Below are positions 36,882-41,837 of a DNA stretch of 64,000 nt, in pieces. Source of the DNA: Methanocaldococcus vulcanius M7 (lineage in GTDB: Archaea > AGJL01 > Methanococci > Methanococcales > Methanocaldococcaceae). A program made the translations under genes and the position numbers. Positions within the stretch are counted from its first letter, which is position 1. Each line of letters begins with the position of its first letter. The notes under the pieces are model-generated. The model saw only the letters and a program-made list of their open reading frames with translations, had not been told where the DNA came from and searched no databases. Location of the stretch: contig NC_013407.1 of NCBI RefSeq assembly GCF_000024625.1, positions 1 through 64,000 on the forward strand, written 5' to 3'.

Positions 36882-37823
36882 TTATTTTAACATTAAAAGC
36901 TCTTCTCTCAACTCTCCCAAAGTAGCAACCTTCTCAGCATACGCATCATGCCTATGAATACTCTCCATATTTATCTGTCTAATTAAAACTCTCGTTTCAT
37001 CTGGAAGATGTTTAAACTTCTCTACGATATTTTTAGCCATCTCTCTAACACAGTCCTCAACAAACATCGGTTTTTTGTGGCTCTGCTCAACAACATACGC
37101 CTCATCTGCCCTCTTCAAAATACCATAGATCTCTGCACTCATCGACTTTTTAATGATCTCTATAATATCCATTATCTCAATCTCATACCCAGTAGGAACT
37201 TCTAATATAATTCTACCAATCCCTCTCTGATTGTGTGTTGCAAAAATTACCGATCTTGTTATTTTTTCTATTTCTTCATCTGAAAAACCTTCTTCCTTTA
37301 ATTTTTTTATAGACATCTCTTTTATTAAGTTTTGAGCACATGGGCATGCAGTAATACCAACAACCTCAGCCCCAACGATCTTGGTTATCTCTACCTTATT
37401 ATCCTTTTTAACACCCTTCGCTCCTCCCATAATCTTATGTATCTCCTGAGAGTACTTTCCAGATATTGGACTCTTTTCCTTTGTCATAAAATCACTAACC
37501 ATAAAAACCTCTGCCTCTGTTGCATATTCATGCTTTTTAAATAATCTCTTCACGATCTCTTCACATATCGTCTCCATTTCATAACTCTCAATTTCTAACG
37601 CCTCATCTATAATTCCCTCAATAACCTCAGGATTTCTTGACATGTGAATTCCTTTCTGTGAGCTTGGCAGATTAACAAAGACCTCAAATGTAGAAAGCAA
37701 TATAATAGGACGCTTATTTGCTCTTTTTAATCGAACAAGTTTTTTTAAATTCGTAACTCCAACTCTTGTTAGTGAAATCTTAACATCTGGCTCAAAATTT
37801 TGAACATCACATCTCCAATTCAT
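36882..37823 (-). CDS. mptA: Fe(II)-dependent GTP cyclohydrolase MptA
   Basis: First enzyme of methanopterin synthesis, turning GTP to 7,8-dihydroneopterin 2',3'-cyclic phosphate. It is of the FolE2/IB fold. About 313 residues. Key segments: LPSSQKGIHMSRNPEVI, VGITACPCAQNL (catalytic Cys), THNQRGIGRIILEVP and ESIHRHDAYAE (metal-binding His). The GTG at 37832 lies in GGTGA, so the ATG at 37823 is chosen. The start overlaps the orc1 3' end, so the two are coupled. Confidence 0.95.
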   Translation of the reverse strand: MNWRCDVQNFEPDVKISLTRVGVTNLKKLVRLKRANKRPIILLSTFEVFVNLPSSQKGIHMSRNPEVIEGIIDEALEIESYEMETICEEIVKRLFKKHEYATEAEVFMVSDFMTKEKSPISGKYSQEIHKIMGGAKGVKKDNKVEITKIVGAEVVGITACPCAQNLIKEMSIKKLKEEGFSDEEIEKITRSVIFATHNQRGIGRIILEVPTGYEIEIMDIIEIIKKSMSAEIYGILKRADEAYVVEQSHKKPMFVEDCVREMAKNIVEKFKHLPDETRVLIRQINMESIHRHDAYAEKVATLGELREELLMLK

Positions 37824-39036
37824 CTTCTTCACCTATCAAAACATCTCTAAGTTCTTTTGATAAACGGTAGTATACATTATTACCATCTCTCTCCTTATTA
37901 ATATACCCCATCTCGTAAATATCTGAAAGATGTGTTCCGATCGTGCTTGGTGATTTTTTTAAATATTCTGCCAACTGTGTTACAGTTGCAGATCCTCCAA
38001 GTTCTGACATTGCTCTAACGATCTCCGACTGAGCGGGCGTTAGGTGGTTTAAAATCTGATGCCCTACACTAATACCAAGAGAATGCATTGCCTCTTTTAC
38101 AACTTTTTCATCGATCTTTGTTAAACCATTTCTTATAGCAATTGATATTGACTCAGAGCATGTCATTATTATCTTCCTTGGAATTCCATCACACTCCTCA
38201 ACGATCTTATGTATAGCAGTTTCAGTAAATGGCTCAAACTCCTCAGCTCCATCAATGTGAGCATCTTCAAGCCGTCTTCTAATCAGATCGTAGGATTCAT
38301 CCTTTGACAAAGGAGGCATGTTTATTATTTTTGGTATTCTATCCTTTATTGGTGGAGATATTTTTGTTAAATCATCCATTAAGGTTGGAGAACCTGCCAT
38401 AAAGGTTAATATTCCTTCTTCATATAAGAAAGAGTGGAAAAATTGTAATAAAGATAAACAACTCTTTTTTGCAAACTGATCGGCTTCATCAATCAATATT
38501 ATGCAAAGTTTATCATGACTTTTAACCTCATTTATAAGATACTCTAAATCCCTCTCGATCCTCTCTCTTGGATAATGAATAGGAACTTTATCTCCGTAGT
38601 TGTTTAATTTTCTATACATATCCAAGATTCTGTTAGAATGTTCCATATAATCAGATTTTATAGTTCCACTTACTGTGATAAGATTCTCAGTTAAGATGTT
38701 ATATAGTAGTTGAATTAGAAACTGTCTCGGCGTTACTTGAGAGGCAGTCATCTCAACAACCCAATGTCCCTGCTTTTTTGTTGCATAATAAATGATATTT
38801 AACATTGAACTTTTTCCAATACCTTTAGTTCCAACGATTGCGGCGTTAACCACACTACCATGTTGTGCAGATCCTAATATTTCCCCAATCTCCCTTAACT
38901 CACTAACCCTTCCAACAAAAAATTTTGTATTTCCCCTTATTGGTTTTTCAGAGAATGGATTATATTTTAGTTTTAATTTGTGCATTGTGCTTGCTATTGA
39001 GTTGGCAGATTTTTGAATAAACTCTATGGGATCCAT
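37807..39036 (-). CDS. Divergent Orc1/Cdc6 replication initiator
   Basis: A 409-residue AAA+ ATPase. Walker A GTKGIGKS at residues 69-76, Walker B LIDEAD at 181-186, and sensor-1-like FMAGSPTLMDD. A C-terminal winged helix begins about residue 335 (SATVTQLAEYLKKSPSTIGTHLSDIYEMGYI). It differs clearly from standard archaeal Orc1 but keeps the plan. The homologous gene of M. jannaschii was, as I remember, proposed as its missing Cdc6. It faces a gene-poor stretch with the 32-bp box at 39121-39152, 85 bp before its start. Confidence 0.82.
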   Translation of the reverse strand: MDPIEFIQKSANSIASTMHKLKLKYNPFSEKPIRGNTKFFVGRVSELREIGEILGSAQHGSVVNAAIVGTKGIGKSSMLNIIYYATKKQGHWVVEMTASQVTPRQFLIQLLYNILTENLITVSGTIKSDYMEHSNRILDMYRKLNNYGDKVPIHYPRERIERDLEYLINEVKSHDKLCIILIDEADQFAKKSCLSLLQFFHSFLYEEGILTFMAGSPTLMDDLTKISPPIKDRIPKIINMPPLSKDESYDLIRRRLEDAHIDGAEEFEPFTETAIHKIVEECDGIPRKIIMTCSESISIAIRNGLTKIDEKVVKEAMHSLGISVGHQILNHLTPAQSEIVRAMSELGGSATVTQLAEYLKKSPSTIGTHLSDIYEMGYINKERDGNNVYYRLSKELRDVLIGEEDELEM

Positions 39037-39710
39037 GTTTCCACCTGCATATAATATCTATTCCTATTATTAATTTGAATTTATTATCACCAATTGATCT
39101 CTATTCGAAGTTTGTTTTTTATACATATATAGATTTCGAAAGATCGAAAGTGAGTTTTCTAATCGATTAACTTAAATAAATCGTTAATAAAAAAATAAAT
39201 TAAAAAAACGTGAATTTAATATTATTTCTTACAAAATATCATGAACCTAAGTATATTTATGATTAAAGAAGGCACCAAGATCCCCAGAAACAAACTTTAA
39301 TAAAAATTAAAATTATATATATACTATTTCTATGAAATAAAGTTAATTTTAATTCTTCTCTTGAGAATACTCAAAAACTCCCAAAATCAAAAAACCGTGA
39401 ATTTAAAGAAAAAAGATATAAAAAACTATGAATCAAAAGATATTATATATTTAACAAAAACACACAGTAGAAACATATATATAGAAAAAACATAAAATTA
39501 ACCCAATATTGAAAAAATCATAATACATACTCGCTCTTAGAAAATAAACATTAAATAATGCTTAAAATATTAGTAATACTTTCACGTAGAATCGAGGCGA
39601 AAATCCGAGTCGTGAATCATAAAATATATAAATGTAAAATAACATAACAATTGAGTAATTATAGTCAACTGAATACAAAATCAACATACACTATTAAAAA
39701 GGTGAAAATC
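39037..39710. other. Gene-free AT-rich region upstream of orc1 (origin locus, left)
   Basis: 674 bp between two divergent genes, with no credible ORF. It holds one 32-bp box (39121-39152), a TTCGAAGTTTG half-site (39104-39114), two CGTGAATTTAA copies (39209 and 39396), and a TTCACG/CGTGAA inverted repeat (39591-39617) just before the small HTH gene. TATATA tracts are frequent. Confidence 0.7.
39121..39152 (+). repeat. Candidate origin recognition box, copy 1
   Basis: A 32-bp box reading ATACATATAT then two TCGAAA cores 8 bp apart. It aligns without gaps with copies 2 and 3. It lies 85 bp in front of the Orc1/Cdc6 start. Confidence 0.65.
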
Positions 39711-40238
39711 ATGGAAAAACTTCCATATGAAATCACATCAACGATTTTCAGAAAAGCAATTTTACATTATGTGTTAATACGTGGCACAACCTATCCTCAA
39801 TCACTGGCAAAAAATTTAAATATATCGAAAGGTCTTGCTTGCTCTTTTTTGAGGTTATGCTCAGCTCTCAACGTAATGAAGAGGGAAAGGGCAGGTCATA
39901 AGGTTATATACTCGTTTACCTCCAAGGGTCTTGCAGTTTTAAAAAGATTGGCACCAGAAATATTCGATTTGAGTTTTTCGAGTGTTTTCGAAAAATTACC
40001 AAAAAAGAAAATATCTACTAAGCACTACCCACTTACAAAGATCGGGTTTGAAATCAAGTGGAAGGAGGATAAATTCGGAGGAATCGTGTTTTCGTTCTTT
40101 GATGCTGATGGGGAGCATTTAGGAGACGTTTTTAGAAGTAATATTGGCAGATGGTGGTGCGTTATCTGTCAGAGTGATTCATGTAAACATATCGATTACT
40201 TGAAACGGCTTTACAAGACATTGAAAAATCAAGATTAA
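39711..40238 (+). CDS. HTH protein with SWIM-like Cys/His motif, at the origin
   Basis: 175 residues. The N-terminal winged helix (about 10-85) has TYPQSLAKNLNISKGLACSFLRLC and the wing HKVIYSFTSKGLAVLKRL. The C-terminal part ends in WWCVICQSDSCKHIDYLKRLY, with Cys150, Cys153, Cys158 and His160. This C-x2-C-x4-C-x-H arrangement resembles a SWIM zinc motif. ATG at 39711 follows GGTGAAAATC. The longer track start at 39651 lacks support. It sits between two copies of the 32-bp box. A role as origin-binding protein or regulator is inferred from place. Confidence 0.8.
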   Translation: MEKLPYEITSTIFRKAILHYVLIRGTTYPQSLAKNLNISKGLACSFLRLCSALNVMKRERAGHKVIYSFTSKGLAVLKRLAPEIFDLSFSSVFEKLPKKKISTKHYPLTKIGFEIKWKEDKFGGIVFSFFDADGEHLGDVFRSNIGRWWCVICQSDSCKHIDYLKRLYKTLKNQD

Positions 40239-40239
40239 T

Positions 40240-40271
40240 AAATTTCGAACTTTCGAGTCGCATGTATGTAT
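40240..40271 (-). repeat. Candidate origin recognition box, copy 2
   Basis: On the minus strand it reads ATACATACATGC, a base pair, then ACTCGAAA and TTCGAAA. It matches copy 3 at about 27 of 32 positions and is in the opposite orientation. It begins 1-2 bp after the stop of the HTH gene. Confidence 0.7.
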
Positions 40272-40590
40272 ATGACCTAAAGGGTGAGCAATTTTTTTGA
40301 CATAATGAATTATCGCAAAATATTGTTAGAGTGGGATCTATCTTTTTTTAATGAACAAATCAGTTAAATGTAGTGTTTTTCAGTAATAGTAAATCTCCAA
40401 CAATGTTTTTTTATAATATTAACATTTTAATGATATTTTTTTGTTATATAGTATATTATATTTATAGTAGATACAATAATAAAATATATTTTTGTTTTTT
40501 CTTTATATAGTGAAAAAAAGTATAATAATATAATAGTTGTGTTTGTGATAATCACAACCATTTTTTTAGGGGTATACCCTTCTTTTCCCT

Positions 40591-40622
40591 ATACATACAT
40601 GCAACTCGAAAACTCGAAAATC
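40591..40622 (+). repeat. Candidate origin recognition box, copy 3
   Basis: ATACATACATGCA followed by ACTCGAAA and ACTCGAAAA. It is inverted relative to copy 2 across a 319-bp AT-rich spacer. It is in the same orientation as copy 1. Confidence 0.7.
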
Positions 40623-40775
40623 TTTTAAGAAATGTATTTTTAAATTTGATTTCTTATTTTATAATTTCGAAGTCAAAAAAGATAAAATGTTAGTGTTTAT
40701 TTATGACCTAACATATCACAACCAAAGATTTGATATAGTTTTTCATGTTTTGAATTTTTAATTTTTAAAAGAAGA

Positions 40776-41837
40776 TTATCCTCCATCGAAATTACGTTTT
40801 AATAGTATAGATGCTGGGATATTGTCTACTAAAAATATTGTTATCCAATGTTTATAATTCTCTCGGTAGTTTTTTAATAAATGTAGTAAGTTATTTCTGT
40901 TAAGTTTTATTTTAAACCTTATTTTATTTCTATGCTTTATTTTTACAAGTATTCCAAGGTCTACTAATTCATCTAAGTATCTATACAGCGTTGGGAGTTT
41001 GTAGTTGACTTTATATTCTATGTCTTCGATTTTAAATTTTTTTAGTTCAATGATCTTTTCAACTAACTTTCGATATTTCGAGTTAACTATGTAGGGAAGG
41101 ATTTTGAGCCATGGGATTTTAAGTTCCCTTAGGGTTTTTATCTCTCTTTTTGAGTGTTTTAGGATGAGATATATCGTTTCTAAGTTTCCGTTGGTTAATT
41201 TTAGTAGATGTTCTGCAACTTTATCACTTAATAGATAGTTGTGAACTTTTGCAAAGTATTTTATGGATGCTTTTACATTTAAGATTCCTTCTGGAAAGAG
41301 GAGTTTCATTTCATCGTAGCATTCATGTGGAAATCTGATTACAACACTTATTTTATTTTTTCTTAGTTCTTTAATAAATCTAACAAAGCTTTTTTTGTAA
41401 TGCCATTTTCTAATATCGTGAATATCAAAAACAATTATTGGATTTAATATTTTTAGTAGGGTTATGGTTTTCCCAATTGCTTTTTCGAAATTCCATGTTT
41501 TTATGTCGTAAAATAGGTCTTTTATTCCCCTATACCATGCTTTTTTTGCTCGATAGTATTTATCAAAGTATATTTTTTCATTTATATATTTTAATAAGTT
41601 TTTTAACCATTTGGCATTTTCGTAATTTTTAAAGAGGACATATTTATCTTTTATAAGGTAGATTATTCTTCCAATTGTTTTTTTTAGATTTGGGGTAGCT
41701 AGTACTCTGATTATTGGTATTTTATTGACTATTTCAAACTCTCCTTTTTCATCTAATTCTAAGATGTTTCCTCTAAATGTGGGGATAAAATACAATCCGT
41801 TGAGGAAATCCTCTGGAGTTGTTTTTATTAGGTTCAT
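40776..41837 (-). CDS. AAA-like protein with degenerate P-loop and C-terminal winged helix
   Basis: 353 residues. Residues 43-60 (IIRVLATPNLKKTIGRII) occupy the place of a Walker A, but the GxxxxGK glycines are gone. NPIIVFDIHDIRKW at 132-145 resembles Walker B. AEHLLKLTNGNLETIYLIL (209-226) resembles the lid of Arch_ATPase/Orc-like proteins. Residues 265-310 form a winged helix (YKLPTLYRYLDELVDLGILVKI). This suggests an inactive ATPase relative. Its ATG overlaps the cbiL stop (ATGA), and its 3' end borders the candidate origin. Function unknown. Confidence 0.65.
   Translation of the reverse strand: MNLIKTTPEDFLNGLYFIPTFRGNILELDEKGEFEIVNKIPIIRVLATPNLKKTIGRIIYLIKDKYVLFKNYENAKWLKNLLKYINEKIYFDKYYRAKKAWYRGIKDLFYDIKTWNFEKAIGKTITLLKILNPIIVFDIHDIRKWHYKKSFVRFIKELRKNKISVVIRFPHECYDEMKLLFPEGILNVKASIKYFAKVHNYLLSDKVAEHLLKLTNGNLETIYLILKHSKREIKTLRELKIPWLKILPYIVNSKYRKLVEKIIELKKFKIEDIEYKVNYKLPTLYRYLDELVDLGILVKIKHRNKIRFKIKLNRNNLLHLLKNYRENYKHWITIFLVDNIPASILLKRNFDGG

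Follow-up and report, generated by a model that had tools for sequence, protein, structure and literature searches.

A candidate chromosomal replication origin with inverted, lineage-specific boxes beside an orc1-like gene in Methanocaldococcus vulcanius

We identified a probable chromosomal replication origin within 39.0-40.8 kb of a 64,000-bp window, the whole stretch of DNA analysed here, which comprises bases 1-64000 of the 1,746,329-bp chromosome (genome 1,761,737 bp, three contigs). The putative initiation module is an inverted pair of boxes at 40243-40619 together with the 317-bp AT-rich core that they enclose. It lies between a gene for a winged-helix/zinc protein (the wHTH gene) and a convergent gene for another winged-helix protein (the flanking gene), with an orc1-like gene on the far side of the wHTH gene. 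The reading that fits these data best, and that we consider likely, is an Orc1-dependent origin with recognition boxes specific to the lineage; firing of the site is inferred, without binding or copy-number data. The first-pass annotation had proposed a candidate origin at 39037-40775, and that proposal is supported by the uniqueness of the boxes, a GC3 skew switch and order-wide conservation at the same locus.

There are three boxes, all of which match TATACATAYATNNNNNTCGAAANNTCGAAA exactly: a left origin box (40243-40272, minus strand), a right origin box (40590-40619, plus strand) and a third box (39120-39149, plus strand) located 83 bp upstream of the orc1-like start codon, in keeping with the earlier description of one copy beside orc1. 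The conserved unit is 30 bp long, not 32 bp as first described, and consists of TATACATAYAT, five variable bases and TCGAAANNTCGAAA. In the two facing boxes the TCGAAA tandem is directed outward and the TATACATACAT side points to the core. The gap between them had been given as 319 bp of extreme AT content; the AT richness is borne out (22% GC) and the length is corrected to 317 bp. The motif ATACATAYAT occurs 3 times in the window as compared to 0.59 expected, and 100 dinucleotide shuffles of the window yielded no box match. All three boxes fall within 39120-40619, and no fourth was found in the whole genome at up to 3 mismatches, a search in which the reversed control pattern had zero matches. 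Thus the three copies are unique to the locus, as had been claimed, and a box spread over the genome, the outcome that would have refuted an origin here, is not what we observed. A search of viral contigs for the box also found none.

The AT-rich core (40273-40589) is the candidate unwinding region. By nearest-neighbour energy the least stable 100 bp of the 64 kb starts at 40409, within the core, and in 18 of the 26 box-bearing loci the core likewise has the lowest stability within the surrounding 6-7 kb. One criterion for an archaeal Orc1/Cdc6-dependent origin, an AT-rich unwinding region between inverted recognition boxes, is therefore met at 40243-40619. Inside the box pair we found a second mirror-image element, ATTATCRCAAA, positioned 36 bp inside the left box (ATTATCGCAAA, 40309-40319, plus strand) and 37 bp inside the right box (ATTATCACAAA, 40542-40552, minus strand), the right copy being part of a palindrome at 40543-40557. 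No further exact copy occurs in the window. With up to 2 changes the element occurs 36-38 bp inside each box in all 13 Methanocaldococcus genomes, most of which keep offsets of exactly 36 and 37 bp, and it is also present 35-39 bp inside the boxes of two Methanotorris-like genomes (G034, G035). Two palindromes had been said to adjoin the right box. One of them, TTGTGATAATCACAA, is confirmed and is of interest for the conserved inner element within it; the other, GGGTATACCC, is within chance expectation and intact in only a few relatives, and was dropped as an origin component. An RNA family search of the region returned a single sub-threshold match.

Gene direction dominates raw GC skew genome-wide, so the raw cumulative curve (window minimum at 39804) was set aside and skew was computed at third codon positions corrected for gene direction (GC3), using a 47% sample of the chromosome taken as stretches. 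The best replichore switch among 350 grid points is at 40,000 (contrast 0.135), and 0 of 1000 block permutations gave one as strong. On a gene-by-gene basis, the GC3 curve declines as far as orc1 (38.4 kb), levels off at the wHTH gene and climbs from the flanking gene (41.3 kb) onward. A GC-skew inflection, which the first-pass annotation had named as a check, is thus observed at the boxes in this genome, and with it a second criterion for an origin, a strand-composition switch, is met. No clear GC3 switch was seen in the sampled G001, G003 and G004 genomes, which are more rearranged or more thinly sampled.

The skew switch cannot separate the box pair from the orc1-wHTH intergenic region ∼0.6 kb away, and it is equally compatible with initiation there. 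Perhaps the origin is at this locus and initiation occurs within 39037-39710, with the Orc1-like protein binding TTNNATTCAY and the box pair as an accessory, an arrangement that we regard as unlikely. The intergenic region is also 22% GC and contains two pairs of TTNNATTCAY repeats on the minus strand (starting at 39202, 39233, 39389 and 39420; 39202-39437 overall), with 31 bp within pairs and 187 bp between them. Their registers are kept in distant members of the order, in genomes that we take to be M. jannaschii, Methanotorris and M. maripaludis, and the repeats resemble the published Methanococcaceae ORB motif of Ori-Finder 2. The same gap was the basis of an earlier origin prediction: Zhang and Zhang in 2004 reportedly placed the M. 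jannaschii oriC at 694540-695226. This reported interval is exactly the orc1-wHTH intergenic region of G004, presumably M. jannaschii, where the wHTH gene ends at 694539 and the orc1-like gene, which we take to be MJ0774, begins at 695227; the box pair of that genome is at 693632-694007. However, the gap lies between two divergent promoters, so the repeats may be operators, and genome-wide TTNNATTCAY is no commoner than its reversed control (213 versus 231). The gap is also more stable than the box core in the window (−1.02 versus −0.94 per step), and in G003, which we take to be M. infernus, it no longer adjoins orc1 whereas the box pair is intact.

The order-wide scan identified the inverted box pair in 26 of 36 Methanococcales genomes, with almost no matches to the reversed pattern, while a phylum-wide search found no box-bearing genomes outside the order. 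The box had been predicted to recur at the same locus in other Methanocaldococcus, and it is conserved both there and across the order. Core length is 315-319 bp in 12 of the 13 Methanocaldococcus genomes and 307 bp in the remaining one; other genera with boxes have cores of 300-329 bp, with one exception. Between Methanocaldococcus species the boxes are 94% identical and the adjoining 36-37 bp spacers 43%. The intervening sequence therefore drifts under preserved distance and symmetry, the pattern that a protein-DNA assembly would be expected to produce. Left and right boxes within one genome are more alike than shuffled partners (0/20000 shuffles), a test that overstates significance because the genomes are related and shared ancestry inflates the figure; all of the family-wide comparisons count related genomes. 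The sole large departure from the spacing rule is a 581-bp core in G017.

Oriented by the wHTH gene, all 26 loci exhibit a common layout: the orc1-like gene leftwards (except in G003), the wHTH gene rightwards, the box pair beginning 1 to ∼75 bp past the wHTH stop, and the convergent winged-helix gene. In G030 the left box is displaced by a few bases. Most of the seven genomes of genus g2 have a degenerate left box, and inner elements are unrecognisable in that genus. The box pair resides between the 3′ ends of two convergent genes in 26/26 genomes and is therefore not a promoter.

Half-boxes, tandems of the form [TC]CGAAANN[TC]CGAAA, also occur outside the pair. Eight were found in 824 kb sampled, six of them between 36.5 and 42.9 kb, including TCGAAATATCGAAA at 41068-41081 on the minus strand inside the flanking gene. 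In 12 of 26 genomes the sequence 800-1075 bp beyond the wHTH stop contains a half-box, and a TCGAAA tandem is positioned upstream of orc1, at about the position of the third box, in 16 of the 25 genomes with an adjacent orc1. The four half-boxes in 800 kb of G003 are confined to the box locus, leaving orc1 without any. We also observed an extra half-box to the right of the pair, ∼490-535 bp past the wHTH stop, at 14 of 26 loci; it is absent from this window. The tandem upstream of orc1, together with the winged helices found in all three neighbouring proteins, would suit boxes that act as operators of a local transcription circuit or as part of a two-way terminator between the convergent genes, but we find this very hard to credit. 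Between two gene ends there is no promoter to control in any of the 26 genomes, a terminator would not be expected to keep a fixed distance and mirror symmetry among four elements, and the skew switch is located at the boxes.

The orc1-like gene (37807-39036, minus strand) encodes a predicted AAA+ ATPase with a C-terminal ArsR-like winged helix (Pfam ATPase_2/AAA_16/HTH_5). Its match to TIGR02928 (E = 4.5e-10) scores 38.9 bits against a cut-off of 181, which was exceeded in none of the 36 Methanococcales, and by sequence the product is a distant Orc1/Cdc6 homologue only. The neighbours had earlier been said to match archaeal origins; an initiator-like gene is present, but it is only distantly Orc1-like and in G003 it lies elsewhere. 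Homologues 69-100% identical are found in 27 of 36 Methanococcales, and the winged helix is strongly conserved across the order. The wHTH gene (39711-40238, plus strand) encodes 175 aa with an N-terminal ArsR-like winged helix and a C-terminal C-x2-C-x4-C-x-H zinc-finger-like domain. It adjoins the boxes in all 26 box-bearing genomes, and its product has 20-36% identity in genus g2. An imperfect inverted repeat, TTTCACG ... CGTGAA, is located just upstream of this gene at 39579-39616 and is possibly an operator. The flanking gene (40776-41837, minus strand), which borders the boxes in 26/26 genomes, encodes 353 aa with a C-terminal winged helix and no Pfam family above cut-off. The AlphaFold models (pLDDT 46 for the orc1-like protein and 58 for the wHTH protein) were of insufficient quality for use, and in a fold search nothing reached E≤0.001; domain assignments for the wHTH and flanking proteins consequently rest on profile matches. 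Kinship between the flanking gene and orc1 was considered and rejected, as the supported likeness is confined to the C-terminal winged helix and hints of an AAA+ lid are weak.

Without binding data, the pairing of proteins with DNA elements can only be inferred. The conserved winged helix of the Orc1-like protein, the half-box upstream of its gene and the persistence of the outer boxes wherever the protein is present suggest that it is most likely the reader of the TCGAAA tandems. The divergence of the wHTH protein in genus g2 coincides with the loss of a recognisable inner element, suggesting that this protein most likely reads ATTATCRCAAA, although kinship alone could explain the pattern. 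The box pair, the wHTH gene and the flanking gene of G003 are together at 104.4-106.5 kb and orc1 is 192 kb away at 297.3-298.5 kb, a separation unique among the genomes. In this genome it is the wHTH gene and not orc1 that accompanies the boxes, so it is also possible that the wHTH protein acts directly at the outer boxes. Skew gave no usable signal in G003 for choosing between the boxes and the distant orc1.

The orc1-like, wHTH and flanking genes and the boxes exhibit one shared pattern of presence and absence. All four are absent from eight genomes of one genus (G021, G024-G028, G031 and G032) and from one incomplete genome; G021 (5 contigs) and G028 (1 contig) are each 99% complete. Profile searches of the module-less genomes confirmed the absence of the orc1-like gene and returned only marginal winged-helix matches for the wHTH gene. 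This genus may replicate without such an origin. In G029 orc1 is at a contig end and the box region is out of view. Partition sites are often placed near origins, and relocation of orc1 has not parted the boxes from the wHTH gene; the winged-helix domain of the wHTH protein has a weak profile match to AspA chains (E ∼0.009). The pair might accordingly be a centromere-like chromosome partition site near the origin, bound by the wHTH protein. We consider this improbable: the immediate neighbours examined included no recognisable ParA-type gene, boxes and wHTH gene are missing wherever the orc1-like gene is missing, and the strongest melting site is between the boxes.

If the box pair is the initiation site of an Orc1-dependent origin, the Orc1-like AAA+ protein would most likely bind the TCGAAA tandems of the outer boxes in two face-to-face assemblies, and the winged-helix/zinc protein from the adjacent gene would most likely bind the inner ATTATCRCAAA or support assembly. 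Both proteins together would melt the AT-rich core and load MCM in opposite directions, two steps that are inferred. Half-boxes outside the pair and upstream of orc1 would provide extra initiator sites and an autoregulatory operator. More tentatively, and with more doubt than belief, we propose an origin type of the Methanococcales' own: a symmetric four-element module of near-fixed length, in which an outer box and an inner element stand on each side of the core. A divergent Orc1-like ATPase would read it together with a dedicated winged-helix/zinc co-initiator that moves with the origin, the convergent winged-helix gene would be a third component, and the module would have been lost as a whole in one group of relatives. 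If this is true, relatives without the module must initiate replication in some other way. These relatives offer a natural experiment on origin loss that may be compared with the origin-independent replication reported in Thermococcus kodakarensis (PMC5663688).

Initiation in the Methanococcales is treated as an open question in reviews (PMC3984812, PMC5333045). The box geometry yields candidate origins at base resolution for the order, among them those of species with genetic systems (M. maripaludis; M. jannaschii, PMC6616113). It moves the predicted core out of the gap between orc1 and the wHTH gene to the latter's other side, and it points to two little-studied proteins that may act in initiation. 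Several features described here were not part of the first-pass annotation: the inner mirror-image element, the position between convergent genes, the co-occurrence of the wHTH and flanking genes with the boxes, the half-boxes beyond the pair, and another set of conserved repeats, located between orc1 and the wHTH gene. Earlier work on Methanococcales origins was in silico only, with Orc1 divergent or unrecognised and the M. maripaludis origin inconclusive (PMC3984812, PMC5333045). The genes have been termed highly divergent orc genes (PMC5333045), a Cdc6-like homologue was reported in M. maripaludis (PMC2643942), and a single predicted oriC of M. jannaschii (Zhang and Zhang 2004) is cited in PMC5333045 and PMC4164010. 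We found no description of the box pair in the literature searched, which excluded most subscription papers.

The locus resembles Orc1/Cdc6-adjacent ORB origins (Sulfolobus oriC1, Pyrococcus oriC and those of haloarchaea) in that a skew switch coincides with an AT-rich region bounded by inverted recognition boxes, next to which lies a gene for an AAA+/winged-helix initiator-like protein. It differs in the box itself, a TCGAAA tandem plus TATACATACAT without the G-rich ORB end, in the near-fixed box spacing, and in having the wHTH and convergent winged-helix genes as constant partners. Even with up to 3 mismatches allowed, the canonical ORB/mini-ORB TCCASTKGAAAYRAAGGGGT with its G-rich end is not found in the window, in agreement with the earlier remark that the box departs from standard ORB elements, and the Methanobacteriaceae ORB form matches only elsewhere, at chance level. 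Nor does the box match the Ori-Finder 2 Methanococcaceae ORB motif TT[TA][GT]ATTCA[TC][GA]AT.... The predicted M. jannaschii oriC is at the same locus, beside the same orc1-like gene, but the box pair falls outside the predicted interval and the published motif differs in sequence. Finally, as at Sulfolobus oriC3, where WhiP is a winged-helix initiator that is not an Orc1, a winged-helix protein gene is located at the origin. Homology to WhiP is not implied, and the protein here is ArsR-like with a zinc-finger-like end, encoded at a locus where an Orc1-like gene is usually adjacent.
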